Assembly (NCBI GenBank): GCA_037178675.1
Contig: JAYMGJ010000583.1
Coordinates: forward strand, 1-64,000
DNA length: 64,000 bases
Reading direction: 5' to 3'
Origin: Scleroderma bovista
Lineage: Eukaryota > Basidiomycota > Agaricomycetes > Boletales > Sclerodermataceae
The notes beneath the pieces were generated by a model. It did not search any database and was not told the DNA's origin. It saw only the letters and a program-made list of their open reading frames with translations. This document shows, one piece after another, positions 3,886-56,144 of the stretch (its first letter is position 1; each line of letters opens with the position of its first letter). The position numbers were made by a program, and so were the translations under genes.

Positions 3886-4287
3886 TCAGACACCAGGTGA
3901 GTAGGGCTTTTCACCTGAGCAGGTCACACTTGATGATTTTTCTGCAGCACTGTCTCCCAGAGGGTTGCCAAGTTCTCCAAGATGCGAGATGCAGCAGTCC
4001 AGGTGAGGATCATCTCTTAGATCCATAATCGTCGAACAGGGCTCCTCAGAGTCTGATAGGTCTTCTTCATCAGAATAATCCACAGTGACAGTGCAAGCTC
4101 CAATGCACGGTGGTAAGTCGTCATTGTCCTCATCTTGGTAGGATTGACTCTCAGGCACGGTTTTGTAGATTGAGGATCTGTCGTCATCCGTCGAAGACTC
4201 CGTTGTTGAGCTGGATGTCTTATCATCCAAGGTATCACCCTCGACATCTGAAGTGTCATCATTGTCTGTGAATATCAAGTCGTGCAC
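3886..4287 (-). CDS. Hypothetical acidic Ser/Asp-rich protein, fragment
   Basis: A 133-codon minus ORF. The N-terminal half is rich in Asp, Ser and Thr (DDTSDVEGDTLDDKTSSS) and a later segment is again acidic (DYSDEEDLSDSEEPC). Composition looks coding-like and disordered, unlike the low-complexity shadow ORFs nearby, but there is no domain, and both ends are probably exon borders. Function unknown; it could be part of a host gene or transposon cargo. Confidence 0.35.
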   Translation of the reverse strand: MHDLIFTDNDDTSDVEGDTLDDKTSSSTTESSTDDDRSSIYKTVPESQSYQDEDNDDLPPCIGACTVTVDYSDEEDLSDSEEPCSTIMDLRDDPHLDCCISHLGELGNPLGDSAAEKSSSVTCSGEKPYSPGV

Positions 4288-4925: not shown

Positions 4926-5013
4926 TCACAAGTGTTCATGTGTCAAGGCATCACAGTTACAAGCTGGTGGCCTAATTAGATGCGTGTAAGTTATGAGACC
5001 GTCTTGCAGGCCC
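4571..5013 (-). repeat. Inverted repeat partner of 43098-43523
   Basis: About 430 bp matches the reverse complement of 43098-43523, from the GCCTGCAAGACGGTCTC end at about 5013 to AGTAAGTTAAACAT near 4588. In this copy the block abuts the truncated integrase of Gypsy-A at 5014; in the other copy it abuts a Copia-A LTR at 43524. It is therefore a unit older than those events. Confidence 0.75.
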
Positions 5014-5905
5014 CGACAGCATAATCTGGGGCAGGATTTCTATGCTTATCCGCCTGAAGCTTCATGTTGTGTTTAGCCTTCTCAGAAGATTCAACGACTT
5101 TGTTAAATATGGCAGCGAAGTCCCTAGCTGCTGGGGCTATTGTCTGCACTGGCTCTACACCCATGCGTGGGGAATAACTGCGGGTAATTCCAAACAGGGA
5201 ATCGGTAGTAACCTCCGAGACCATGTTGTTCCAGACAAACTGGGCAATCTTGATCCACTTAGCCCAATTGTTTTGACGATCGCTAACATAGGTCTGAAGG
5301 TACTGGTTGATTTCGCGGTTCAACCGCTCCATTTGTCTGTCAGTTTGCAGGTGAAAGGCAGTAGACATCTTGCGCTTTATGCCTAAAAGTCTGTACAACT
5401 CCCCCAGGAAGTTGCTCGCAAAGACCGATCCACAGTCAGATACTATGGTGCTAGGAAGTCCATGCTGGCACCAAATGTGATCTCTAAATAATTCAGCGGT
5501 TGTCAATGCAGTCTCTTCCTTAGTGCATGGTACAAAGACCACTTCTTTGGAGAACCGATCGACAACTACTAATATATAATTATAACTGAGGGATTCCGGC
5601 ATCTCAGTAAAGTCCATCGTGACATCAAGCCACGGTCCTTCTGGGACAGGGAGGGGAAGGAGACTTCCAGAAGTCTTCTGATTCGAAACCTTTGACTGTT
5701 GACACTTTTGACAGTGCTTTACATAGGTTTGGATCTGCTCCTTCATCCCTTTCCAGGTATAGTGCTTCCTGAGCGCATTAAACATAGCCTTGACACCCTT
5801 ATGTCCAGCAACAGGGGTGTCATGAAAGTCCGTGATTAGCGACTGGCGTTCCTCATAAGTCTGATCTGTAATGTCGATTGACTTAATAGATACAGGGTTT
5901 AACAA
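5014..5905 (-). pseudogene. Gypsy-A integrase
   Basis: The minus frame shows an HHCC zinc-binding domain (HDTPVAGHKG ... HCQKCQQSK) and the DDE catalytic core: D in DVTMDFTEMP, D in IVSDCGSVFAS, E in DRQMERLNREINQYL. A segment typical of Gypsy integrases (WAKWIKIAQFVWNN) follows. Integrase would insert the element's cDNA into chromosomes. The frame ends in foreign sequence (ACKTVS) at the truncation, so any C-terminal domain is missing. Its frame continues from RNase H with stops near 5951 and 5905. Confidence 0.9.
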
Positions 5906-5950
5906 GGCTTGATCCTAGTTATCTTTGGAGCTAGAGACGTAATAGTCCAA

Positions 5951-12943: not shown

Positions 12944-12945
12944 TA

Positions 12946-13064
12946 CAGCTGTGTGCGAAAACCTTGTCAATACCCAAATATTTTGTGAGCTGCGTCGTGA
13001 GGTGTGCCCAAAAAGGAAATCAATCAGCTACAGGCTACCTGCCGCTACCGTGTGCTGTCGTTCA
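12946..13064 (+). repeat. Left terminal inverted repeat of IS630/Tc1-like element
   Basis: 119 bp matching the reverse complement of 16383-16501 with about three mismatches (for example CGCTACCG against TGCTACCA, CpG-type changes). The cargo gene ATG lies 46 bp inside it. Confidence 0.95.
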
Positions 13065-13110
13065 GCTCCTGCCTTACCATTCTGTCAGTGAACGGTCCAG
13101 ACAACCAGCA

Positions 13111-15087
13111 ATGGCCAAGAAGCAGCGAAAGGCCCCTAAGAAAGTTACTATAACCATCCCGGGACGCCCAGCTGTTCCTCAGACACCTGTTGACGACTGC
13201 GTTGACAAACAGCTGGCCCTCCCACTCAGCCGTTCTGTGGGATCCCCGCAGCTGCAAGCCAGCAGTGCCAAGGCACATGAAGAGATTCATCAGGCCTCAG
13301 TGACTGATAAAATCGACCTTACCGCTGACTCTGATCAGGAGGAACAAGGCTATATGCGTGCCTCTGATGTCGAGATCGAAGAGCATCCTCAGCAATCCAA
13401 AAATGAATCTTCGTGTGAGTCTCAAGTATGTTGGCCATGTTTTATGGCTAATCTGTAACTCGTGCAGTCATGTTTATCAATACGGATTCGACCTCATTTA
13501 GTTCCTCCACGGCTCGCAAGCGTGAGGAACCAGAATATGATGCACTGCAGTCAGAGCCCAGCACACCCCCATCCAGACCATACAAGAAGTCACGCGTTGA
13601 CATTGAAGATACCTTGACCGATGATTCCCCAGTGAAGAAGAATCGAAGGATGAAGAAAGCTCTCAAGAAACTCAAGAAACGATGTGTCAGCCCAGACGAG
13701 GACAATGAATCCACTGAAGAAGCCGAAGACGAGCCCAGGCTGTTCACCGTCTATGTTCAAGTCTGGTCAAGCTCAACAGAGCCACGAAAGTCGAACAAAA
13801 AGTCTGCCAAGGTATCGACGATCAATGTGGTTTCGAAAGGCCCCTTCAAGTGCAAGACGACCGATCCTTTTGCTTCCTTCATGTCTCGTGCTGCTGCGGC
13901 ATTGCCTTGTCGACTCTCGATGCTTCCTATTTCCAAGTTGGAGTGGAAGTTCGAGAACCAAGCACAGGGTGCGCCTCGCAAGAAGGTTGCTGATGAAGCA
14001 GGCTATGAAGCACTCGTTGATGCAGTCAATGCAAGACGGCGACAAGAAAATGTTGTAGTTTGGTTATACACACCTAAACCAAACAAGGATGACGAGGTAT
14101 GCATGTTTCATTGTGTACTATTGACTAAACAACATGTTGTACATAGGATTGGGACACTGGCGCCCCGGACCATGTCAACGAACCATTTGATTTTGATAAA
14201 GAGGTTGACGAAGAACCTTCTGGAAGTAAGGCCAAACTCGTGCGTTTACCCTATCAAATCCATTGTCAATTCATACCTGTTACTACGATGGCAGGACAAT
14301 ATGGTTCAGAAGGTCAAAGATGCACAGGCTGAGATTGAACGTATTTACCCAGTGGGAGGATGTCCGCTGTTCCCAGACAAGCGGGTTTGGCACGACAAGC
14401 GGACTGATGCATACTTCGAGCTCTCTCAAGTCCGAATCAAATTTTGGGCAGCAAGCATCGTAAGTGCAGAACTCGGAGCATTTTTATGGGTTTGGAACCT
14501 TTTGCTTTTAGGTTTCAGGACGGTGTGGTGTTACAGCTCCCCCAGTCTCAGCACATTTCGCAGAGAAGACTAAGTTGAAAGTTCCTCATCACGCTCCACA
14601 GCCGAAGCCAACTGGCCCAAACTCCAGTGACAATGACGGTGTCCATGCACCTGGCCACCTCGGTCCAAGTGCTCCTCCAAACCCTATGCTCTTCCCTGGG
14701 TTGAATCAAATTTACCCAGGGATCTATGTGCCACACGCACAGTTCAATCCCCAGATGCCTCATAATCCTTACCCGCCTCCCTTCCCCACTTTTCCAGGCC
14801 ACGGCACCTTTCAATACCCACCTCGGACTGCATCTATTTCATCGTCGCCTGGGTCCACAACATCCAACAAGGTCACGGTTGCAGAGTTCTGTGCCAAGTA
14901 CCATATCTCCCAAAGTGATCAAGATAAGCTTCTTTTGTTGGAGTACCGTCCAGGAAATCGTGCAGTCGAACATTTGGAAGAGCGAGAATGGAGGGAGATT
15001 GGTGGTTTCACGAGGCTTGGCTGGGAGGCATTCCTAGTGGCGCATAGAAAGTTTTGCAAGGCCATGAAGACAAATACTTGGGTGTGA
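13111..15087 (+). CDS. Cargo gene of IS630/Tc1-like transposon, five exons, 588 aa
   Basis: Predicted exons: 13111-13414, 13468-14096, 14147-14239, 14295-14459, 14512-15087. All introns are GT-AG (GTGAGT, GTATGC, GTGCGT, GTAAGT starts; 50-55 bp) and the joined frame is open for 588 codons, unlike every other gene here. The protein starts MAKKQRKAPKKVTITIPGRP, has an acidic IDLTADSD motif, a basic nuclear-localisation-like stretch (KKNRRMKKALKKLKKR), a central folded region (LFTVYVQVW...CRLSMLPISKLEWKFENQ), a Pro/His/Asn-rich linker and a helical C-terminus (KVTVAEFCAKYHISQSDQDK ... REWREIGGFTRLGWEAFLVAH). I do not recognise a named family; nuclear and DNA-associated is an inference. Intact state suggests youth or selection. 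Confidence 0.75.
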
Positions 15088-15238
15088 CTTTCACAGAGCT
15101 GATGGACCTGATCATTTCTTGTTACTGCATTGACACTTCTCACTGTGATTTCTTCACACCATCCCACAGTTCTTGTACGAACGTCTGGTATCCTTTGCAT
15201 TGGCATGAACAACGTGTATGATGTATAGTACAGCCTGA

Positions 15239-16364
15239 CTACTCAAAAATGTAACCTGCATGTTTGAACCAACCGTAAGCTTTTTCAGCAGTTATGCAGC
15301 TTGTAGCTTCCATCAGTGCAAGGATAGGTTCTTCGTCAAGACGTATCTCAGCTGCATGACGCCGTAAGTGCGCCTTGACTGTATGATGTCAGCATAGTCA
15401 GACATCAAGATCAAGCAAGTACAAAGCATACGACAGCTGAATGATTCTTCTATTGGCGTGAGATCCGGTGAGTAAGGAGGGAGGTACTTGATAATACACC
15501 CTGCATGCGTTGCATGGCGGTTAGTCCATCAGAAAGTATGCTGATACGTACCGGAATTTTCCACAAGGTCAACTAGAGCGTCATTGTGGTGGATACGACA
15601 GTTGTCAAGGATAAGGACAGATCATTCTGCTGGGAAAGCATTCATCTGTGGCAACTGAACAAGGTATATGCACTGTTATCAATTATGTGCAAATCACGTA
15701 CAACTTCCTCTGCAATGAAATCGTAGAATTGCTGTGCGTTGTAGGACCCCTCAATGACATGAGAGGCAATATAGCCTTCAGTGGTCAATGCAGCACATAA
15801 CGAATATCGGGTGCCTCGAACAAAGACATCCCTGAGCTGGGCACGTTTTCCACGGGGTGCACGTCCATAACGTCGGGCATAGGTCCGTTCATTTTTGCTT
15901 GTTTCATCAATGACAACAAATTCAGAGCCATCACCGATAAAGTTGTCCCGCAGATAGTCCTGGAATTCTCCACGACATGCTTCATTTCGTTCTGATGCAA
16001 GTTTCTGTAGAATTTTGCGAGACAAGCCAACACTATTGAGTGTACGAGAGAGTGATGAAGTGCTGATGAAAATGTCGTGTTCCACTGTGAGCCAAGTACA
16101 AATTTCATCAAGGTAGAGGTCGGGATCCTCGGAAAACATATCTTGCATGGCAGTCAAAAGAGCTCTTGTTATCGTTCGGGCACGCCCTCTCAGTGGGGAA
16201 GGTGGTCGATTGACAGAACCATGTTCTTCCAATATTTGTCTCCAGCGGTAGCAACTGCGAGAGGAAACGCCAAGAGCAAGGCAGAGATCCTCGAGATCCC
16301 ATCCTGAGTCCCAAAGACGAAGTGCACATTCTTTGAGATCACGGCTGATATGGCGGTAGGGCAT
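15239..16364 (-). pseudogene. IS630/Tc1-family transposase, four exons, one in-frame stop
   Basis: Predicted minus exons: 16364-15702, 15645-15552, 15500-15432, 15378-15239, with GT-AG introns of 51-56 bp and a joined 321-codon frame. It starts MPYRHISRDLKECALRLWDSG, a helix-turn-helix (DLCLALGVSSRSCYRWRQIL), then DDE_3-type catalytic motifs: D in VVIDETSKNERTYARRYGR, D in LILDNCRIHHNDA, E in YLPPYSPDLTPIEESFSC. The C-terminus reads EKAYGWFKHAGYIFE. The enzyme would cut at the TIRs and insert at TA. One TGA at 15624-15622, in front of SVLILDN, makes it inactive unless read through; CGA to TGA is the likely change. Confidence 0.9.
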
Positions 16365-16382
16365 GATATGAATCGTCAAGGT

Positions 16383-16501
16383 TGAACGACAGCACATGGT
16401 AGCAGCAGGTAGCCTGTAGCTGATTGATTTCCTTTTTGGGCACACCTCACGACGCGGCTCACAAAATATTTGGGTATTGACAAGGTTTTCGCACACAGCT
16501 G
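16383..16501 (-). repeat. Right terminal inverted repeat of IS630/Tc1-like element
   Basis: Inverted partner of 12946-13064. The transposase start codon at 16364 lies 19 bp inside it, so the TIR probably supplies the transposase promoter. Confidence 0.95.
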
Positions 16502-16503
16502 TA

Positions 16504-16933
16504 ACCTTTTGATCTGTTACGCTTATCACTGACCTCCGTTCCATGTATGTTACTCATCCATTTGTCATCCGCAGACTCTTACCTATGTCTCCGCTATGTT
16601 TCTCTCCGCTTCTCGGTTACTGTACATTCCCGATGTAAAGTATACGTACTCTGCATGCTGAGGGAATTGTCCCTCAGTTCGAATATCAGCTTGAATACCT
16701 CCTGCGAACTCTCCTCTGTCCCCTTGGCCTTCTGGCAAACCTGACCTTCGTCGGACCTCCGTCTCTCCATTCCTTAGTCCTCCGAAATACGAGGACACAG
16801 GTATCGCAAGGGCGCAGCACATACGCTGAAGCCAAGTCCTCAAACACTTCCGCATCTCCTCCACCTGTTGTCGACGACCCTTCATACTTATCTCCGCTCT
16901 TGTTGGAGTTCGTCGGAGGAAACAATTCTGACA
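16504..16933 (+). repeat. Gypsy-B 5' LTR, right part
   Basis: Continues the 5' LTR after the nested transposon and ends in TTCTGACA at 16933. It matches 25615-26041 closely. Gag begins 45 bp downstream. No TGG-type primer-binding site follows the LTR end, so the priming mode is not evident. Confidence 0.9.
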
Positions 16934-16978
16934 GTATATTCGAACTCACTCTTGCACACCTGCTCATTACTCCCAACC

Positions 16979-18339
16979 ATGACTAGTCAATCGATAATCA
17001 CTACCCGTGCTCAGTCTCGTGCGCTCGAAGAGCGCCAAGAGGCACTCAATGCGCCCTCTACTTCCCGTAACGATTTGGTCGAAGAAGGAGAGTTCCTCTC
17101 CTTCTCCAATCGCAATACTCCGCCTGGGGGCCCCGCCCCCGACCCAACTACTCCGACCCCTGCTGCCCGCCACCCCAACAACTCTGGAGTTTACTCCACA
17201 CGTCGTTTCGACAACGTCTTGGACATCTATGGCGATGGCTACCCTGGCAACGATGGCGGTGACGGCGGAGGTAGTAACCCGCCGTCCCCCAACCCGCCAG
17301 ACATCCCGCTACCAGACTCCCCTACCCCTTCCGCCTCAACTCCGACCCCGGACCCATTGCTCCTGTTTGCACAAGCGGTCCAAGCGCTGACCAAAGTCGC
17401 TACGGCATCTGCCGACCGCGACTCCTCTTCTGGTCGCACCAAAGTCCACGAACCTGACACGTTCGACGGAACCGATCCGCGCAAGCTCCGCGCTTTCCTT
17501 GTTCAGTGCGAATTGAACTTTCAGGATCGCCCAAAGGCGTTCGCCTCTGACCGTGCAAGGGTCACCTTCATGCAGTCCTACCTAAAGGGCATGGCCCTCA
17601 AATGGTTCGAACCAGACCTACCCAACTCCGCCAACCCCCGCGCCCGTCTGCTATGGATGGACAACTACGCCCAGTTCGTCTCCGAACTGAAGTCCAACTT
17701 CGGCCACACGACCCTGTCGGAGACGCCGAACATCAGTTGGACAACCTGTCCATGAAAGAAGGACAGAAAATCAACAAGTACGTGGTTGAGTTCAACCGCC
17801 TTGCTGGCCAAGTCCGCGGCTATGGCAACGGCGCCCTCCGCCACATTTTCTACAGCGGTCTCCCCAACCGCATCAAGGATGAAATCTCTCACGTTGGCAA
17901 ACCCCGCACCCTTGATGGTTACTGCACTCTCGCGCAGACCATCGATGCCAGGTACTGGGAGTGCAAATCTGAAGTTGTGCGCCAAGCCAAGACCTCCACT
18001 TCCTCTTCATCCAACTCCGCCTCCAAAGGCAACTCCTCCGCCTCGTCCGACTCCAAGGGTAAAACCAAGGAGAAGGACAACAAGAACAAGAGCTCCGAGA
18101 AGTCGAAGAGCTCCTCCGGCGCCAAGCCCGCCTCCTCCGAAACCCCCGCCCATCTTGGAAAGGATGGCAAGTTGACCGAGGAAGAGCACCAGCGGCACAT
18201 CAAAGATAAGCTCTGCATGTTCTGTGGACAGCCAGGCCATATGGCCAGGGACTGTCCAAAGTCCACCTCCAAGAGCTCTAAAGCCAAGGCCCACTCTGCC
18301 AAGGCTGTGACTCCTGCTGCTGCAGAGTCAAAAAATTAG
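16979..18339 (+). pseudogene. Gypsy-B gag
   Basis: Starts MTSQSIITTRAQSRALEERQ, followed by a Pro/Asp-rich disordered region, a capsid-type domain (VHEPDTFDGTDPRKLRAFLVQ, MKEGQKINKYVVEFNRLAGQ), a Ser/Lys-rich linker and a CCHC knuckle (CMFCGQPGHMARDC) near residue 430. A single-base loss near 17705 splits the frame into 16979-17755 and 17602-18339. The end, TAG at 18337-18339, lies directly behind a run of six A. Gag forms the particle; its frame is one base ahead of pol. Confidence 0.9.
18330..18339 (+). promoter_or_regulatory. Candidate -1 ribosomal frameshift site
   Basis: Gag ends TCA AAA AAT TAG. The heptamer A AAA AAT fits the X XXY YYZ rule for tandem slippage, the gag stop is the next codon, and the -1 frame (AAA AAA TTA GAC AGC) is open all the way into the protease. 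The related fragment at 2785-2776 keeps the geometry as A AAA AAA TAG. Whether an RNA structure follows was not computed. Confidence 0.6.
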
Positions 18340-21300
18340 ACAGCAGCTCCCAGAACTCCGCACAAGCTGGGGGTTGCGTTGACTCCGACTGTGCACCTAT
18401 GGAGTTACGCCTCAATGCGTCCGCTCTCTCCAATCCCAACTCCCTTATGCCCTCCGTCACGATTACGTCCGCCGTCGCTATTCCTCCTGTTTCCGCTCTC
18501 GTTGACTCTGGCTCTAGCCACTGTTTCATAGATAGCAAATTTGTTAATAAACACGCTCTTGAAACCTACGCAATCGCTCCGCTTGAACTCCGCCTCCTAG
18601 ACGGTTCTATGAACACCTTCATTACTAAAGCCATCAAACTCGACATTCAGTTCTCCACAGGCGAAGTCAACTCCGAAACATTCTACATAACTCCACTGGA
18701 TTCCTCCTGCGTGCTGGTCCTCGGACATAGCTGGCTCACCCACTACAATCCGTTGATTGACTGGGTTTTGGGCCACATTGAATTCCGTAAAGGCACACTG
18801 CGAATGCCCGCATCCCCGGTACCTCCTTCTGTTGAGTCCGCCTCTGCGACTGCCTCCACGGCTCCGCCACCAGAGGACTCATCTCCGCCCTCTGACTCCG
18901 ACTCGCCTCAGTTGACCACTCCCTACGTTTCGCTGATAGGCGCTGCTGCATTCGCGCGCGCTTGCAAACTCACGGGATCTACCAACTTCACATTGTACAT
19001 CCACCCAGAAGACGCAAAGCTCCACTCAGCCTCCGCTGCCACTCCTGTCGATTCTCCCAATCTCTCCGCTGTGCCAGAAGTCTACCATGACTTCGCTGAC
19101 GTCTTCAGCAAGGCAAAAGCTACCACACTCGCTCTGCATCGCAAGTATGATCTCCGAATCGATTTGGAGGAAGGCGCAAGCCCTCCACTGGGTACTGTGT
19201 ACTCCCTTTCACAGACTGAATTAGGGGCGCTCCGCACATTCATTGACGAGCACCTCTCCTATGGCTTCATTCGACAGTCGACCTCCGCTCATGGAGCTCC
19301 TGTCCTGTTCGTACACAAAAAGGATGGATCACTCCGCCTCTGCGTCGACTACAGAGGACTGAACAAAATATCAAAGAAAGACCACTACCCACTCCCTCTC
19401 ATCTCTGACCTCCTGGATTCCCCCAGCAAGGCAAAGATCTATTCAAAAATCGATCTCCGCCATGCGTACCATTTGGTCCGTATCGCTGAAGGGGATGAAT
19501 GGAAGACCGCATTTCGCATGCGGTATGGTTCCTTCGAGTGGAATGTCATGCCTTTCGGCTTGACCAATGCTCCCGCGGCTTTCCAGCGATTTGTTAACAG
19601 CATTCTCTCCGATATGCTTGATGTCTGTGTCGTCGTCTACCTGGACGACATCCTTATCTACTCCGAAGACATTGAATCACATCAAAAGCATGTCTGTGAA
19701 GTCCTCTGACGCCTCCGCAAGCATAATCTCTTTGCTAAACCGGAAAAGTGCGAATTCCATACCACCTCCACCGAATACTTGGGCTTCTGCCTCTCCCCCG
19801 ATGGCCTTTCCATGTCCGCCGACAAAGTCAAAGCCATTTCCGACTGGCCAGAACCCCGCAAGGTGAAGGACATCCAGTCCTTCCTCGGTTTTGCGAACTT
19901 CTACTGTCGCTTCATCTTCAACTACTCCAACATTGTCGTGCCTCTCACGTGGCTTACCCACAAAAACATTCCTTGGAATTTTGGTGAGGACTGTCGCTCC
20001 GCCTTTAACCTCCTGAAGAAGGCCTTCACCTCCGCTCCTATCCTTACCCACTGGGTCCCTGACACTCCGCTGACTGTGGAGACCGATGCTTCAGACTACG
20101 CCATCGCTGGAATCCTTTCCATCACTGGCTCTGATGAGGTCCTCCACCCTGTCGTGTACTACTCGCGCACTCTGTCTGCTCTGGAGCTGAATTATGACAC
20201 CCACGACAAGGAGCTTTTGGCCATTTTCGAGGCTTTTAAGCACTGGCGACACTACCTTGAGGGCTCCGCCACTCTGGTTGATGTGGTCACCGACCACAAG
20301 AACTTGGAATATTTCTCCAGCTCCAAGGTCTTGACCCGCCGTCAAGCCCACTGGTCGGAGTACCTCTCCCAGTTCAACCTCGCCATCGCTTCTGCCCTGG
20401 ACGCCTCAGAGCTAAGCCTGATGCCCTCACTAGACGCTGGGACGTCTACCCAAAAGAGGGGGATAGGGACTACGCTCGGATCAACCCACACAACCTCCGA
20501 CCCCTGTTCACCCAAGAACAACTCGCGTCCTCCCTTAGGGCAACAATTCTCCTCACTCCGGCAATCCGCACTGCCATCCTCATCGACGTGGAGCAACTCC
20601 ACAAAGACATCCTTGCAGCTCTCCCCTCTGATCCCATCACGCTCAGCCACAAGTCCGACTCATCCAATTCTTGGTGGTCATCAGACTCCGCTGGCCTACT
20701 CCGCCTTGATGATAGGATCTACGTGCCAGATGCTAATGATCTCCGCCTCAGAGTCCTCCGCTACAAGCACGACCACCCGCTCTCCGGCCACTTCGGCCAG
20801 AACCGCACTTTGGAACTAGTCCGCCAGGAATATACCTGGCCAGGTGTCCGCACCTTCGTAAAAGACTACGTAATTTCCTGCACATCCTGCGGACATGCTA
20901 AGGTCCCTAGGCATAGGCCCTATGGCCTATTAAAACAACTTCCGATCCCCGCTCGCCCATGGCATTCCATATCCATGGACTTCATCGAGCAACTACCCTC
21001 CTCCGATGGATTCACCTCCATCTTAGTCGTCGTGGACCGCCTCTCGAAGCAAGGAATATTCATTCTGACCTATGACACCATCACTTCCCCTGAGCTTGCC
21101 AAGCTCTTCGTCGTGCATGTGTTTTCCAAACATGGAGTACCCACCCATGTCACCTCCGACAGAGGTTCGGAGTTCGTTTCTCACTTCTTCCAATCACACG
21201 GAAAAGCACTCGGAATGACCTTACATTTCACCTCTGGCTATCACCCAGAAGGAGATGGTCAAACCGAGTGGACGAACCAAACACTCGAGCAGTACCTCCA

Positions 21301-25360: not shown

Positions 25361-26041
25361 TGTCACAACCGTGTGACACCTCGTGACTCCGCAAGGCCTC
25401 TAGTCTGTTGTAAACCAAAGTCCGATCGTAATCGCACACCTCCGATGCTACATATCCATCTCTGCTCTGACAATTGACGCTCCGTCTCCTTTTAGTATAT
25501 AGTTCCGTGTCTATGCCTCCGGTTATTGTATGCCTCCGTTCTGTTTCTGTTCCTGTTCCCTTTGTTCCCGTTTTAGATTAGATAACGATTACTAATAGCT
25601 GTGATCTGTTAACCTTTTGATCTGTTACGCTTATCACTGACCTCCGTTCCGTGTATGTTACTCATCCATTTGTCATCCGCAGACTCTTACCTACGTCTCC
25701 GCTATGTTTCTCTCCGCTTCTCGGTTACTGTACATTCCCGATGTAAAGTATAAGTACTCCGCACGCTGAGGGAATTGTCCCTCAGTTCGAATATCAGCTT
25801 GAATACCTCCTGCAAACTCTCCTCTGTCCCCTTGGCCTTCTGGCAAACCTGACCTTCGTCGGACCTCCGTCTCTCCATTCCTTAGTCCTCCGAAATACAA
25901 GGACACAGGTATCGCAAGGGCGCAGCACATACGCTGAAGCCAAGTCCTCAAACACTTCTGCATCTCCTCCGCCTGTCGTCGATGACCCTTCGTACTTATG
26001 TCCACTCTCGTCGGAGTTCGTCGGAGGAAACGATTCTGACA
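25361..26041 (+). repeat. Gypsy-B 3' LTR
   Basis: 681 bp from TGTCACAACC to GATTCTGACA, preceded by a purine-rich tract (AAAGGGGGGATAC) that would prime plus-strand DNA synthesis. It is uninterrupted and so shows where the nested transposon landed in the 5' LTR. Differences from the 5' LTR are mostly C/T or G/A. Confidence 0.95.
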
Positions 26042-26046: not shown

Positions 26047-27565
26047 CAACAGCTACTGCATCAACATCTCAGGTGACATGGAGACTGAAGACCTTCAATT
26101 TGCAAACTTACAAGGTGCATGCACTGGGTGACTATTCGAGCTCAATAAGCAAATTTGGCACCACAGATTCTTATAGTACTGAGCCGGTAATTAAATGTGC
26201 AAGATATATCCTTCACTACTGCTGATATGGTAAACAGGGAGAACTCGAACACCATATCTCGAAGGCAAGATATCGTCGAACTGATGGAAAGGAATGCGTG
26301 AAACAGATGGCCAGCATCGAACGTTGTGAAGCACAGATACGTCACACTCAAGACCTGAATGACCCACCACCATTGGGTACCAATGTTGAAGAAAGGGTTG
26401 CCGCTACACCAGATGCTCATTTTCATATTGGCAAATCTCAAAACTTCCCTGAAAACTTCCCTATGTTCTTGCGCAAACACCCTGACGACCTGGCTATTGT
26501 TGTATGTTGGCCATCATTGTAGTGGCTACATAGGTCACATCAGTGATAGGATTTTCTCCCAAAACTTAAACAATACCTTCTTCCTAAAATCAAGGAGGTT
26601 TTATTTCAGGAAGATGGACTCAATCTTTCTGAGGATAATCTAGAGTCTGTCTGGGGTGCTGCGTCGAACTCAATTCCTTCAGATGGTCAAGTTTACATAG
26701 CGGCTGATTGTTTGTATAAGCACAGTCTGATGCGTCTCAACTACACAACATACAATGTCTGCAGAGCACAGGATATCATCAACCCCTCAACCACTCACTG
26801 CAATATTATGCTTTTGGCTGAGCACGGCACCAGCGAAGTTGGCTTGCATTCACAGCACCTGTATCTTTATGCCCACATCCTTGGCATCTTTCATGCTAAT
26901 GTCACCTATGTTGGCCCTGGCATGGTCAACTACCGTTCACGTCGGGTCAATTTTCTGTGGGTCCGATGGTATCAGTATGTGGAGGAAGGCACTGGCTGGG
27001 ATGTATCAAGGTTAGATCGTGTATGCTTTCCACCCATGGTGGACAGGCATGCATTTGGCTTCGTTGATCCGGACGATGTCCTTCGAGGGTGCCATATGAT
27101 ACCACAGCTTTCGCATGGCCCATGGCACCTGGATGGCTCAGGGATATCTCTTTGTGCGCATGATGCCACAGATTGGCACTTCTACTATGTCAACCGGTCT
27201 GTTTCTTTACTCTCTAGCCTTTTCCTACTGACAACTTATTGGCAATATTTAGGTTTGTTGATCGTGACATGGTCATGCGATACCACTGGGGCTTAGGAGT
27301 CGGACATGTATACGCACATGATCAAGGAGTTAGCAACGGAATCCCGCAGGAGTCAACCAGTGAAGGAGGTGAACACGACCCAGCAACAGGCAAAAATGAC
27401 GATGTCCACTACTCCCCAGATGCATTGGATGGTGATGAAAATGGTGAGGATGAATGCCCGGACCAGGCCATTGATGATGATTCTCACAAAGAATCTGGAT
27501 CCGAGAGTGTGCAGTCCACCGATGATGATATCAATGACTATGACACTTTGGACTATCAGAACTAA
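26047..27565 (+). pseudogene. Plavaka-type transposase gene copy 1, 3' part
   Basis: Continues copy 1: HALGDYSSSISKFGTTDSYSTEP, then MASIERCEAQIRHTQ, DPPPLGTNVEERVA, a segment FLPKIKEVLFQEDGLNLSED, and the C-terminal Plavaka block (LYLYAHILGIFHANV ... RRVNFLWVRWYQY ... HAFGFVDPDDVLRGCHMIP ... DWHFYYVN). A GT-AG intron at about 27198-27252 precedes FVDRDMVMRYHWGLGVGHVY, followed by an acidic Asp/Glu tail and TAA at 27565. Stops in the segment around 26220-26300 show decay. Confidence 0.85.
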
Positions 27566-32899: not shown

Positions 32900-33070
32900 G
32901 ACCACAGTGAGCTCCTAGCTGAGCCCCTGCACAGCCACAAGGCGAAGTCGGTCGACGACTTGCGCCAGACAGTGAGCTCCTAGTTGAGCACCTGTACTGC
33001 CACAGGCAAAGTTCGTCGATGACTTGCGCCAACCATGGCAAACATCGTCGACGACTTGCGCTGGCATACC
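32900..33070 (+). repeat. Copia-A leader tandem repeats
   Basis: A unit of about 70 bp containing CAGTGAGCTCCTAG, a TGAGC.CCTG stretch, GCCACA and GTCGACGACTTGCGCC occurs twice with a third partial copy. The same array occurs in copy 2 at about 50945-51110. Located between primer site and gag, possibly packaging or structural RNA. Confidence 0.6.
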
Positions 33071-33192
33071 CTAGTCATGAGCTAGCTGTTGACAGAAGTG
33101 CTTTCACTAGCACTCAGGTGTTTTCTTCTTTTCTTGATTGTCCGTTGTCGCATTCACTTGCTGACTCCGTTGACTCCCAACAGAATATCACC

Positions 33193-36100
33193 ATGTCCAG
33201 CGCTATCGACAAGATGGTTCCCGTGTTCACTGGCTCCAACTGGCAGCAGTGGCACACTTCTATGCAGGCCTACCTCCGGGCACAAGGCCAATGGTATGTC
33301 TACTCGACGACGCAACCCATTGCCGGTCATGATGACCATAAGGAATGGGACGACAACATCGAGAGAGTGCTCGGTAATATCACCTTGCACCTTGCCCCCT
33401 CTATCCAGGTCGCTGTCTCCAACCTCGACAACGTTAAGGACGTCTGGGACCACCTAAAGAAGAACTTCGGTGCCCCCAGTATCGGCTCCGCCTACGCCGA
33501 GCTTAGCAAGCTCCTGGCAACTACCATCCCCGCTGGCTCTCACCCCGCTCTGGCTATCACCAAGGTGCTCAGCCACTTTGCTTATCTCAAGGACGCCAGC
33601 TTCGAATTCCCTGCCCCTGTGCAGGCTATGATTATTCTTTGCAAGCTCCCTCCCACTATGGAGGTCGTAGCTCAGATTCTCAGCCAAACGTCGCCAGACG
33701 AGATTAAAAATCTGAAGCCCGACGGGATCATAAAGGCCACCACGCTCTCCTTCGAGCAGAAAGGCACCTCTTCGTGCGCCGGTGGGAAGGGCCCCCAGGC
33801 CAACAAGCTTAGCGCTGTGAAGCGCAAGCCGGCTGACCCCAAATTCGCCCAGCAGCAGCAGCAAGGCAGGTCCAACGGCGGTGCGAGCGGAAACGCTCCT
33901 GCCCAAGGACAGGGAGGCCGCACTCGATGCGGCGGCAAGAAGGCTCGTGCTCACCGCGAGAACAGGCCGCCTTCGCCACTTATGTCCACTATGATGGACC
34001 AGAGCCCACCGTCGACCCTCGCGCCCTGGCTCACACCCCCAGTGCTGCCCACTACGGCCCCCCCGCTTTCGATAATACTATTCGGGCCTTCGATTTGGCA
34101 CACCGTCTGGGGGTAGAGCCCTCCTGCCAAACCATCTGCACCCTCGACCAAGTTGTGTCAATGGCAAGTGCGAACCTGGACCAGCCCGAGGCTGGTCCCT
34201 CCTCGTTGAAGCGCCCTCGTCTCGAGGAGCATCACGATGTATGAGGAGGATGCCATCTCCCATGGGGATGAAGAGCCCTTCGCTCACGAGCCCTTCGCTG
34301 ATGACGAGTTCGATGAGATCGATGTGATGGTCCTCGACCGCTACAACGCGATGTCGATGGCGATGGGCGCGGAGGCCAGCCTTTTCAGGCAAGTACCTTC
34401 TGCACGTGTGCTGATCGACACTGACATGCTCCCTTTACATGTGCGCTATACGCCGTCACTGTATATAGCGAGTAGTAACTATAATATGTCATGTCGTATC
34501 TCGAGTAAAGCATATATCTGTTCGTGTCTGAATGATACACGCTGTGCTGGCTGTAAGGGAAAAATGGTCGACAATAGCGAATTATCTGGTGCCTTCTGGC
34601 TCTTAGACTCTGGCGCATCATGCCACTTTACTGGTGACATAGGTGATTTCGCCTCCTACAACGCGCTAAAGCGAGCACACTACGCCAAAACCGCAAATGG
34701 TGTAGCACTAATTGCTGGCATTGGCACAGTATTACTCCGGTGCCTAGACCACAACTCTGGGGATGAGAAAGTTATTACACTCACCCAAGTGCTCCATATG
34801 CCAGGTGCTACTGCACGCCTTATTTCTATGGGCGAAATGCTCCAGCGTAACTATAGAGTCACTGGCAATAAGCGAGGCATTAGCCTTATTCATAAAGCTG
34901 AACGCCTATGGTTTGGGCCAGACCCAGAAGACGATCGCAACATCATTTTCGGGATTAGATCTATCCCAATAATTAGATCTAACTACATCGCCTCCGTGAG
35001 CAAAGTCGATTACGACATTATGCACTGGAGATTTGGACACCCCTCGAAGGAAGTACTCCGACGCGCGCAAAAACATATGCAGCGCTTTCCAGAGATACAC
35101 TTTCCAACTGAGGATTGTGTTTGCCCTGGATGTGCTCTTGGCAAGATGCCCAATCGAGCTTTCCCAGAGAACGAAAGACGTGCTTCTAAGCCCTTCGAGC
35201 TAGTGCACTCTGATCTCAAATCCTTCCCGGTTACGTCGTACCGGAAGTTTAAATATGTTATCACCTTCTACGACGACTATACCTCTCACGCCTGGACTAT
35301 GCCTCTTCGCTCCAAAGCTGCAGCGATTACGGCTGCCAAAGATTTCCTCGAAATGGTGCGCGTCCAACATGATATGCACATCGTTGGATGGATGTCTGAT
35401 GCCGGCGGAGAATATAAATCCGATCTGTTTGATTGAGCACTCCTTGAGAAAGGAATCAAAATATATCAAAGTGCTCCAAGAACCCCCATGCAGAATGGCC
35501 GCGCCGAGCGTTTAGGGTGCACTCTCATGGATAAAGCTGAGTCTATGCGGCATCAAGCCTGCATCCCTGACTCCTGGTGGGAATTTGCGTTCGCTCACGC
35601 AACTCACCTTTACAACCGTACTCTGGTAGCTCGCCTGCGATGGCGCACCCCCCATGAAATGCTTAAGGGGAAGATGCCTAACATCGACCACCTACGTGTA
35701 TTTGGCTGTGGAGCATTTGTATACCTCCCAGCCTCGGCTCGAGCAAATAAGATGGCTCCCAAGTCGGAGCTTATGACTTATGTCGGTGTTGCCCCTGGCA
35801 ATGAGCGCAACTTTTTGTTTATGTGCTCCACCAATGCAGTGTTTACCGCTGCTCATGCCGTCTTTGATGAGCGTCACTTCCCTCGCTGCCCCAAAAACAG
35901 GCGCGAACCTCTCGAGAACCCTTTCGGAATGGCAAATCCGAAACCTACCACCGATCGACCAGGGAATTCCCCTGATGATACCAACAGTGATGATGATGTG
36001 GAACACGACCATGGCTACCCACATCCCCAAGCGCAGGATGACGATCCAAAGCGCGAGGACCCTGAGGCTCCTGAGGAAGAGCCTAATCAAATAAATCCTC

Positions 36101-51235: not shown

Positions 51236-54200
51236 ATGTCTAGCGCTCTCGACAAGATGGTCCCCGTGTTCACTGGCTCCAACTGGCAGCAGTGGCACAC
51301 CTCTATGCAGGCCTACCTCCGGGCACAAGGCCAATGGTACGTTTATTCGATGACACAACCTGCTGCCGGTCACGATGACCGAAAGGAGTGGGACAACAAC
51401 ACCGAGAGAGCGCTCGGTAATATCACCTTGCGCCTCGCCCCCTCGATCCAGGTCGCCGTCTTGAACCTCAACAACGTTAAGGATGTCTGGGACCACCTCA
51501 AGAAGAACTTCGGTGCCCCCAGTATCGGCTCTGCCTACGCTGAGCTTAGCAAGCTCCTGTCGACTACCATCCCCACTGGCTCCCATCCCGCTCTGGCTAT
51601 CACCAAGGTGCTTAGCCATTTCGCTTATCTCAAAGATGCCGGCTTCGAGTTCCCTGCCCCCGTGCAGGCAATGATCATTCTGTGCAAACTCCCTCCCACT
51701 ATGGAGGTTGTAGCTCAAATTCTCAGCCAAACGTCGCCGGACGAGATCAAGAATCTGAAGCCCGACGGGATCGTCAAGGCCGCCACGCTCTCATTCGAGC
51801 AGAAAGGCGCCTCTTCATGCGCTGGTGGTAAGGGCCCCCAGGCCAACAAGCTTAGCGCTGTGAAGCGCAAGCCAGCTGACCCAAAGTTCGCCCAGCAGCA
51901 GCAGCAGCCCCAGAGGCAGCAGCAGCAGCAAGGTGGGTCCAATGGCGGTGCGAGCGGAAACGCTCCTGCCCAAGGACAGGGAGGCCACACTTGACGTGGC
52001 GGCAAGAAGGCTTGCGCTCACCGCGAGAATGCCCAACAAGCCACCTTCGCTACTTATGTCCACTACGATGGACCAGAGCCCACCATTGACCCTCGTGCCT
52101 TGGCCCACACTCCTGGCGCTGCCCACTACGGCCCCCCCGCATTTGATAAATACTATTCGGGCCTTCAACTTGGCACATCGCTTGGGGGTAGAGCCCTCCT
52201 GCCAGACCATCCGCACCCTCGACCAAGTTGTGTCAATGGCGAGTGCGAACCTGGACCAGCCCGAGGCAGGTCCCTCCTCGTTGAAGCGCCCTCGTCTTGA
52301 GGAGCGCATCACGATGTATGAGGAGGATGCCATCTCCCATGGGGATGATGAACCATTCGCCCACGAGCCTTTCACCGACGATGAGTTCGACGAAATCAAT
52401 GTGATGGTCCTTGACCGCTACAACGCAACGTCGATGGCAATGGGCGCGGAGGCCAGCCTTTTCAGGCAAGTACCTTCTGCACGCATGCTGACCGACACTG
52501 ACACACTCCCTTTACATGTGCGCTTTACACCGCCACTGTATGTAGCGAGTAGTACCTACAATATATCGTGTCGTGTCCCCTCGAGCAATGCATATATCTG
52601 TTCCTGTTCGAATGATGCTCGCTGTGCTGGCTGTAAAGGAAAAATGGTCGACCATAGTGAACTATCTGGTGCCTTCTGGCTACTAGACTCTGGCGCATCA
52701 CGCCACTTTACCGGTGACATAGGCGATTTCGCCTCCTATAATGCACTAAAGCAAGCGCACTACGCCAAAACGGCTAATGGTGTAGCACTAATTGCTGGCA
52801 TTGGCACAGTATTACTCCGGTGCCTAGACCACAACTCTGGGGATGAGAAAGTTATCACACTCACCCAAGTGCTCCATATGCCAGGCGCTACTGCACGCCT
52901 TATTTCTATGGGCGAAATGCGCCAGCGTAACTACAAAGTCACTGGCAATAAGCAAGGCATTAGCCTCATTCATAAAGCTGAACGCCTATGGTTTGGGCCA
53001 GACCCAGAAGACGATTGCAACATCATTTTCGGGATTAGATCTATCCCAATAATTAGATCTAACTACATCGCCTCCATGAGCAAAGTCGATTACGACATTA
53101 TGCACTGGAGATTTGGACACCCCTCGAAGGAAGTACTCCGACGCGCGCAAAAACATATGCAGTGCTTCCCGGAGATCCACTTTCCTACTGAGGATTGTGT
53201 TTGCCCTGGATGTGCTCTTGGCAAGATGCCCAATCGAGCTTTCCCAGAGAATGAAAGATGTGCTTCTAAGCCCTTCGAGCTAGTGCACTCTGATCTCAAA
53301 TCCTTCCCAGTTACGTCGTACCGGAAATTCAAATATGTTATCACCTTCTACGATGACTATACCTCTCACGCCTGGACTATGCCTCTTCGCTCCAAAGCTG
53401 CAGCAATTATGGCTGCCAAAGATTTCCTCGAAATGGTGCACGTCCAACATGATACGCACGTCATTGGATGGATGTCTGATGCCGGCGGAGAATATAAATC
53501 CGATCTGTTTGATCGAGCACTCCTTGAGAAAGGAATCAAAATATATCAAAGTGCTCCAAGAACCCCCATGCAGAATGGCCGCACCGAGCGTTTAGGGTGC
53601 ACTCTCATGGATAAAGCTGAGTCTATGCGGCATCAAGCCTGCATCCCTGACTCCTGGTGGGAATTTGTGTTCACTCACGCAACTCACCTTTACAACCGTA
53701 CTCCGGTAGCTCGCCTGTGATGGCGCACCCCCCACGAAATGCTTAAGGGGGAGATGCCTAACATCGACCACCTAGGTGTATTTGGCTGTGGAGCTTTTGT
53801 CTACCTCCCAGCCTCGGCTCGAGCAAATAAGATGGCTCCCAAGTCGGAGCTTATGACTTATGTCGGTGTTGCCCCTGGCAATGAGCGCAACTTTTTGTTT
53901 ATGTGCTCCACCAATGCAGTGTTTACCGCTGCTCACGCCGTCTTTGACAAGCGTCACTTCCCTCGCTGCCCCAAAAACAGGCGCGAACCTCTCGAGAACC
54001 CTTTCGGAAGGGCAAATCCGAAACCAGCCACTGATCGACCAGGGAATCCCCCTGATGATACCGACAGTGATGACAATGTGGAACACGACCATGGCTACCC
54101 ACATCCCCAAGCGCGGGATGACGATCCAAAGCGCGAGGAACCTGAGGCTCCTGAGAAAGAGCCTAGTCAAATAAATCCTCCCTGTACGCCATCTCCAGTG

Positions 54201-56144
54201 CCTCCACCGGCACCGAGAATGCCTTCACCGGCGAGAAATCCGCCACCTCCAGCACCACAGCGCCCTGGCTGAGCTGAACACCACCAGAATGCGCTGCGAC
54301 CCCCTGCAGTGAATATCCCTGCCCGCCCCCAACGTGAACGTAGAGCGCCATTGCGCCCCGGTAACGTGTATGGTGAGCAGCAACATCCTGTTGAGCAACT
54401 CCAGGATATCGAAAGTGCCTCTCGATGGCAAGAAACAGTGGGTGAGGCCCCTAGGCCCCCACAACCGGACACACCAGACCATATCCCTGGTGGTTTCCCC
54501 GACACCTCTGCAACGCCCAGTGAGGAAGATGTGCAAAAGATGTGCGAGGAAGGGGGAGCAAACCTAGTCCGTTATCTGATGGGCAAAGCCCTCGAAACCC
54601 GCGAGCCTCAATATGAGAGCGTCCGCAACTGGTCCTACAAGGACATCGCTCGCTTACCCCAAGCTGAGCAGAAACTCTGGCGACTTGCTTGCCAAGAAGA
54701 GCTCGACGTGCTGTGAAAGCGCAAGGTCTTTGAGCTAGTTGACCGTCCCCGAGACCGGAAGGTCATAAAGAATCGATGGGTCTTCGACGTGAAGTCGGAT
54801 GGCCGCAAGAAAGCCCGCTTAGTAGCGAAAGGCTTCTCCCACGTTGAGGGATTAGATTTCGACCAGGTCTTCTCACCAGTCGTGCACTTTGAAACAGTGC
54901 GCCTCATGCTTGCGCTTGCCGCACTTGAGAATTGGTATATCCCTGGACTCGACGTTCGGAGCGCCTACTTGTATGGCAAGCTCAATGAAGCGATCTACAT
55001 GGAACAACCCGAAGGGTTTGCAGTTCCTGGGCAAGAGCGCAAAGTGCTCCGCCTCTGGTGTGCCCTCTATGGCCTCAAACAGGCCAGCCTAGCTTGGTGG
55101 CGCACACTCGATGAGTCTCTCAAAGAGCTCGGGTTTGAGCGCCTTAAGTCTGAAGCAGGCACCAACATCGTCATTGGCATTATCTACGTTGACAATGCTT
55201 TATTCTATGGCCCTAACAAGGCTGTTGTTGATGCCATCAAAGCGCAGTTCATGCACAAATGGGAGTGCCGAGACCTTGGAGAACCTAAGGAGTTCCTCCG
55301 AATGCGAATCACTCGCAAAGGTCACGCTATCCACCTGGATCAATGCGTGTACCTCCAAAAGGTCATCGAACACTGCGGCATGCTCAATGCAAAGTCTGCA
55401 AGCACCCCACTGCCGGCTGGCTACTATGCCACCAAAAATACAGAGCCTGTTGATGCGGAACTCTGCTCCCGTTTCCAGATGGTTATTGGGTCCCTTCTGT
55501 ACCTTATGTTAGGCACTAGGCCCGACATTGCCTTTGCAGTCACCCATCTCTCGCGCCATGCCGCGAATCCATCCCAGGACCACCTATCCAAAGCGCTTTA
55601 TATTTGTCGCTACTTGATTGGTACACCTAATTACCCCCTAGTGTACAATGGTGGATCCGGTGCTGGCCTGATTGCATGCACGGACTCAGATTGGGGATCA
55701 GACCCTATCTCTTGCCTCTCGCAGACAGGTTTCTACCTGAAACTTGCAGATGGCTTGATCAGTTGGACTTCTTGTGCACAGAAGACTATTGTGTACTCGT
55801 CCACTGAGGCTGAATACATGGCTTTGAGTGATTGCGCTCGCCAAGTTACCTGGATTCGGAGTCTACTCGGTGAGCTCGGCTATAAGCTGAAAGCTATCCC
55901 GATTTGCGGTGATAATCAGGGGTCCATATTCATGGCATCCAACCCTGTAATGGAGCCTCGCTCCAAGCACATCGACATCCGCTACCAAGGAATCCGCGAG
56001 TCAGTCGCGAAAGGTAACGTGGAACTGTTCTTCATTGATGGTGCTGAAAATCCCGCCGATCTGCTCACCAAGAACTTACCACATGAGAAATTCGCGAAGT
56101 TCAGAGCTCAACTAGGCTTACAGTTTCCCTCTGGCAGCATCTAG
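51236..56144 (+). pseudogene. Copia-A gag-pol polyprotein, copy 2
   Basis: Gag starts MSSALDKMVPVFTGSNW and runs to TGA at 51992. One extra base near 52150 shifts the frame, after which protease (LLDSGASRHFTGD), pre-integrase (HWRFGHPS), integrase D (HSDLKSFP), D (SDAGGEYKS), E (NGRTERLG), RT and RNase H (SSTEAEYMAL) follow to TAG at 56142. TGA codons at 51992, 53718, 54270 and 54714 are CGA in copy 1. A 24-nt deletion near 55161 removes eight RT residues, between short AGGCA repeats, and the catalytic motif reads YVDN (55185-55196) instead of YIDD. Confidence 0.93.

Follow-up and report, generated by a model that had tools for sequence, protein, structure and literature searches.

We describe here a transposon in the genome of Scleroderma bovista, in a stretch of 64,000 nucleotides that we call the window (assembly GCA_037178675.1, contig JAYMGJ010000583.1, positions 1 to 64,000 of the forward strand). 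The complete element, 3556 bp at 12946-16501, is a two-gene cut-and-paste transposon of the IS630/Tc1 type (DD34E), bounded by terminal inverted repeats (TIRs), with two convergent genes between the arms: a transposase gene on the minus strand and a second gene on the plus strand, which we call the accessory gene. The TIRs are 119 bp long, the left at 12946..13064 (+) and the right at 16383..16501 (-), and are equal at 116 of the 119 positions. The start codons of the two genes are just inside the TIRs, at 13111 and 16364, as had been noted in an earlier reading made from the DNA alone (the sequence-only reading), and we infer, as that reading did, that the TIRs may act as promoters.

The insertion site is a TTAA inside the long terminal repeat (LTR) of a retrotransposon, where the left flank ends in TTA before CAGCTG and the right flank begins with TAA after CAGCTG. 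When the two flanks are joined they match the repeat in at least 40 places of the genome where it is uninterrupted (51.8 Mb in 850 contigs; 40 of the 151 candidates were scored and listed), and the listed copies of this highly repeated LTR match at 93-98%. One uninterrupted copy is in the window itself, at 25512-25711 (+), with a 98% match and the sequence GATCTGTTAACCTTTT, and comparison of this copy with the flanks shows that the element entered at the TTAA and that the TA inside it was duplicated. The two copies of the TA are at 12944..12945, within TTA, and at 16502..16503, within TAA. The earlier description of a 3556-bp unit with 119-bp TIRs and a TA duplication is thus borne out by the identity of the arms and by the empty site. 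The TTA and TAA flanks had led us to consider a 3-bp duplication, which is characteristic of PIF/Harbinger elements, and this is ruled out by the empty site, as the change from TTAA to TTA...TAA is a duplication of TA.

Related elements elsewhere in the genome fall into three deep lineages, A (which includes the window copy), B and C, and we refer to individual copies by our own labels. TTA precedes and TAA follows each of the 16 elements of which both ends were read (11 of lineage A, four of lineages B and C, and copy C777). C43b and C191 have their flanks in common and therefore represent one insertion, leaving 15 that are independent. The ends point to TTAA targets for the family, with the duplication itself demonstrated for the window copy.

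The transposase gene has four exons, 15702..16364 (helix-turn-helix and the start of the DDE_3 domain), 15552..15654, 15432..15500 (the catalytic E of DD34E) and 15239..15378 (including the stop codon). Together they give a 324-codon frame that is open except for one in-frame stop, at 15622-15624 in exon 2, so that the transposase is indeed broken, as was first thought. Matches to DDE_3 (E 2e-10) and HTH_28 pass the Pfam cut-offs, and there are 34 residues between the second D and the E of the triad, as counted by eye after splicing in the window copy and in a single lineage B copy. By spliced alignment, seven of 13 lineage A copies have a transposase without stop or frameshift (C135, C354, C43b, C60, C777, C535 and C536), and the other six have at least one (C582, C453, C494, C43a, C191 and C264). 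A database transposase from Pisolithus microcarpus 441 (P0036) is spliced unlike the genomic copies and looks to be mis-annotated.

The five exons of the accessory gene splice into 588 codons and a stop. Exon 1 (13111-13414) has a basic start and encodes the motif IDLTADSD at 13312-13335; exon 2 (13468-14096) has a basic cluster at about 13635-13682 and a PB1-like domain at about 13743-14073; exon 3 is at 14147-14239; exon 4 (14295-14459) has a conserved YPVGG...WAASI block; and exon 5 (14512-15087), which includes the stop codon, encodes a proline-rich linker and, at about 14869-15069, a SAM-like domain. Spliced alignment of a Pisolithus microcarpus homologue (P0001), with no use of the earlier gene model, recovered introns 2-4 exactly and gave no stop or frameshift; intron 1 was put elsewhere in this alignment because P0001 starts late. 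With the window protein as query, all five exons are open in the near-identical copy C453, and the gene is open in seven of 13 other lineage A copies (C453, C135, C43b, C354, C43a, C191 and C60), although for C43a this needs a chain of 14 proposed introns and we do not trust it. In C494, C535, C777, C536, C264 and C32 (a stray copy) the alignment gave one or two disrupting events, part of which are in N-terminal stretches with a poor match to the window query; this comparison covered the copies other than C233. On these alignments the five-exon, 588-codon gene of the sequence-only reading is real.

Of the 39 relatives of the accessory gene in the genome, 36 are within 2.5 kb of a related transposase gene, with stretches that close to the listed transposase matches making up about 0.7% of the genome, and all 36 pairs are convergent (tail to tail) and spread over the three lineages. 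In the case of lineage A there are 15 accessory matches, of which 13 adjoin a transposase; for lineage B the count is 18 of 19, and for lineage C it is five of five. Looked at from the other side, an accessory gene accompanies 13 of the 14 lineage A transposase matches (those with 53% identity or more across most of the query), and is missing beside C353. No accessory match was found in the DNA fetched around transposases C743 and C353, and two further transposase matches with no accessory match, C722 and C504, are both at contig ends; C157, C458 and shorter transposase fragments were outside this check. The sequence-only reading would have been refuted by homologues that occur only away from such TIRs, with no second copy bounded by them; it was not refuted, as there are 11 further lineage A copies with clear TIRs.

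The relationship of the accessory proteins across lineages is clearest in the C-terminal domain, for which profile-profile comparison of lineages A and B gave a probability of 87% (E 4e-6), less diverse lineage A profiles giving 20-22% (E 0.001). The lineage B profile scored all three of the tested lineage A exon 5 sequences from the same genome and 15 of 32 database proteins above all 2000 shuffled controls, and matched none of 100 transposases. In reverse, the lineage A profile found two of three lineage B C-terminal pieces, weakly (E 0.003-0.005) and above the shuffled sequences. For the PB1-like part the probability is only 4.7% (E 0.009), with the match in order over 114 columns. The accessory protein of lineage C has no sequence link to those of A or B in these comparisons; the gene order is the same and, by eye, there is a similar succession of parts, from which the lineage C gene may be akin to the other two.

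Outside S. bovista the 32 database relatives of the accessory protein include 25 named from Pisolithus, Suillus and Paxillus (15 species, all Boletales) and seven without a species name. Ten of the 32 share a contig, as judged by equal contig size, with one of the 100 transposase relatives, against 0.07 expected under shifted sizes, and in all eight pairs with a species name for each protein the species agree. In three cases the shared contig is under 4 kb, so that the genes must be neighbours; three other contigs are longer than 700 kb and are of little use for judging how near the genes are. By this measure of a shared contig the gene pair appears to recur in Suillus, Paxillus and Pisolithus. 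Transposase relatives are also found in Agrocybe, Flammula, Artomyces, Mycena, Dendrothele and Gymnopus.

The two genes have also diverged together. Within lineage A the distances between accessory proteins are correlated with the transposase distances (Mantel r 0.976, p 5e-5, 13 pairs), and for five subfamily representatives r is 0.92, with only the true one of the 120 possible orders reaching it. We are confident that the accessory gene is a standing, old component of this transposon family, and a component of the element rather than cargo. The sequence-only reading had offered an accessory factor and a hitch-hiking host gene as alternatives, and the linkage, constant orientation, presence in three lineages and recurrence favour the first. 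The second, that a host gene was captured once and is merely carried, has in its favour the three relatives that are away from any transposase, but these are poor witnesses: C32 (L021), an 89% relative of the C536 copy, has no TIRs or transposase and looks decayed; C233:35419 (L022, about 3920-4270) is a degraded fragment with a stop and with no TIRs or transposase nearby; and C595:86084 is apparently a piece of an interrupted copy. With tail-to-tail order constant in lineages whose transposases are only about 27-38% identical, and with co-divergence and recurrence as well, we regard simple cargo as very improbable and in practice ruled out.

With regard to selection, the ratio of nonsynonymous to synonymous change (dN/dS) in exon 5 is 0.17-0.56 in all 15 pairs of the C354 subfamily, and 0.11-0.14 for that subfamily against C535, where dS is at least 2 and near saturation. 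The counts are crude (Nei-Gojobori) and the copies are not independent of each other. Two sets of values weigh against constraint: C582 and C453 differ in exon 5 by four nonsynonymous and no synonymous changes, and C536, C264 and C32 give 0.7-3.2 among themselves (0.70 for C32 and C536). Both are as expected for decaying recent copies, and overall these comparisons indicate that amino-acid change in the accessory protein is mostly constrained. They also bear on the suggestion that chance open frames gave rise to the five-exon model, a suggestion that is hardly credible given dN/dS below 0.6 in 15 of 15 pairs, introns 2-4 recovered through a homologue and annotated homologues in 15 named species; we consider a chance frame to be ruled out by the first two of these.

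There are signs of recent movement. Three lineage B copies of 2974 bp (L024, L041 and L042, on contigs C69, C418 and C472) are at different sites and have three, four and seven base differences; in L024, the copy that was modelled, both frames are open. Their near-identity indicates very recent transposition of a two-gene element. Three deletion derivatives of 1098 bp (L029, L030 and L031, on contigs C89, C338 and C149) are also at three different sites and retain the two TIRs together with the beginning of the transposase gene, and in L030, the one that was read, the beginning of the accessory gene is retained too; these non-autonomous elements fit with movement in trans. The first reading had treated a very young gene and one kept by selection as alternatives, and this was the wrong choice to pose, as an old gene sits here in a young insertion.

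The accessory protein could regulate the element that encodes it, holding the transposase in check as a repressor or through copy-number control, for instance. Low copy number (13 paired lineage A elements) is in keeping with this and self-associating domains would be compatible, but a pure repressor should vanish from the fittest copies, and among the fetched loci there is no TIR-bounded, recently amplified copy with transposase only. We think a regulator quite unlikely.

The protein was first described as belonging to no recognisable family, which holds at the level of sequence but not for predicted folds. A Pfam scan of the window protein gave no match up to E 1, and for 18 homologues only two stray matches, each in a single homologue, that we take as noise. 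Sequence searches of the PDB gave, for profile A1, only p63/p73 (E at least 0.13) and, for profile A6, two NusA chains (E at least 0.43), which we also take as noise, and no match for profile A8. The predicted structure has a domain that resembles PB1 and agrees with the PB1 fold, and a second that possibly resembles the five-helix SAM fold, less surely than the first resembles PB1. PB1 and SAM domains both often self-associate. The acidic OPCA motif and the basic-face lysine of PB1 domains were not found on reading the alignments by eye. Basic clusters are commoner in the accessory protein than in the transposase. The motif IDLTADSD resembles a SUMO-interaction motif, and a regular-expression scan of the 32 homologues, of which many are truncated, found acidic-hydrophobic motifs of variable sequence in the N-terminal part of 12; that such a motif is conserved would be speculation.

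We suggest, with a probability of about 0.55, that the accessory protein is a transposition accessory factor, which as a whole is the best explanation of the data. A mechanism can be proposed because of the domains, the linkage and the analogy with ORF1 (the first open reading frame) of PIF/Harbinger elements. The basic clusters would carry the protein, and perhaps the transposase too, to the nucleus, and would also carry the protein to the long TIRs; the PB1-like and SAM-like domains would make it multimerise; and the multimer would gather transposase on both ends, pairing them for cleavage and insertion at TTAA. We hold this mechanism only tentatively, at rather less than even odds, and infer likewise that the protein may bind DNA and transposase, form multimers and be required for transposition.

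The main rival to an accessory factor is that the protein acts not in cut-and-paste but by countering host silencing. The precedent is the VANC proteins of the Arabidopsis VANDAL transposons (PMC10398659 and PMC5735166). The mark of such anti-silencing is that the element's own copies lose DNA methylation. Anti-silencing would also explain long retention, the linkage and constraint data fit it equally, and conserved pairing cannot separate the two readings, but no Pfam domain points that way and we consider it unlikely.

Among known systems the single-gene IS630/Tc1/mariner DD34E elements share with the present family the helix-turn-helix and DDE_3 domains, the DD34E spacing, TIRs and TA duplication. 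In contrast to them this family has another gene, convergent with the transposase gene, a length of about 3-3.6 kb and ends that point to TTAA targets, TA alone being usual for Tc1/mariner. PIF/Harbinger elements (Ping/Pong, Harbinger3) resemble it in having a second element-encoded protein beside the transposase. However the transposase here is DDE_3 and not Harbinger-type, and the duplication is TA and not 3 bp. The second protein of PIF/Harbinger is Myb/SANT-like; the one here has no Myb match in Pfam and is modelled as PB1/SAM-like, although a fold match that is missing excludes nothing. In one account it was suggested that ORF1 of PIF/Harbinger binds the TIR and that nuclear localisation of the transposase requires it (PMC2836001). 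By analogy the accessory protein most likely works like ORF1 without belonging to that family. The ciliate TBE/Tec elements have a DD34E Tc1/mariner transposase and extra open reading frames, three in all, the extra ones being for a zinc-finger protein, a small open reading frame or a recombinase; TBE TIRs are about 80 bp, and the elements are given as confined to ciliates (PMC7325037). The likeness is in the DD34E Tc1-type transposase, the TIRs and the extra gene content, but here there are two genes between the TIRs and the second protein has no zinc-finger or recombinase match in Pfam. Two-protein transposons and Tc1-type elements with extra genes are thus already known, and in the titles and starts of abstracts of the open-licence papers that our searches listed we found no description of a fungal Tc1-type element with a second gene, nor of this family.

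Tc1/mariner elements are the textbook single-protein movers, which is the reason that Sleeping Beauty and Himar1 function in a wide range of hosts. The pairing suggests that this element depends on two proteins, its relatives usually having just one, and a Tc1-type lineage that keeps a second protein over deep time raises the questions of what that protein does and why one is insufficient. The proposal gives a testable function for orphan proteins of Suillus, Paxillus and Pisolithus that are annotated, in the database names we have seen, only as hypothetical or uncharacterised, and transposon accessory genes may have been counted among the genes of these fungi. A bolder view, which we put forward as doubtful, is that there is an ancient Agaricomycete branch of Tc1-type elements that are obligate two-protein machines, in which transposase would work only where a PB1/SAM protein, polymerising at the two ends, assembles it on long TIRs at TTAA targets. 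On this view the accessory gene would go back to the shared ancestor of three lineages or more, and many hypothetical proteins of Agaricomycetes that are now uncharacterised would descend from it.

With regard to the rest of the window, it had been said that every other gene is damaged. There are 20 other stop-free stretches of at least 230 codons, of which 10 were scanned, and nine of the 10 are pieces of Ty3- or copia-type retroelements. Ty3-type and copia-type pieces are at 1343-2761, 4994-5914, 16778-20816, 32923-35433 and 51864-56141. At 26550-27293 (+) there is a 248-codon open frame with no Pfam match.
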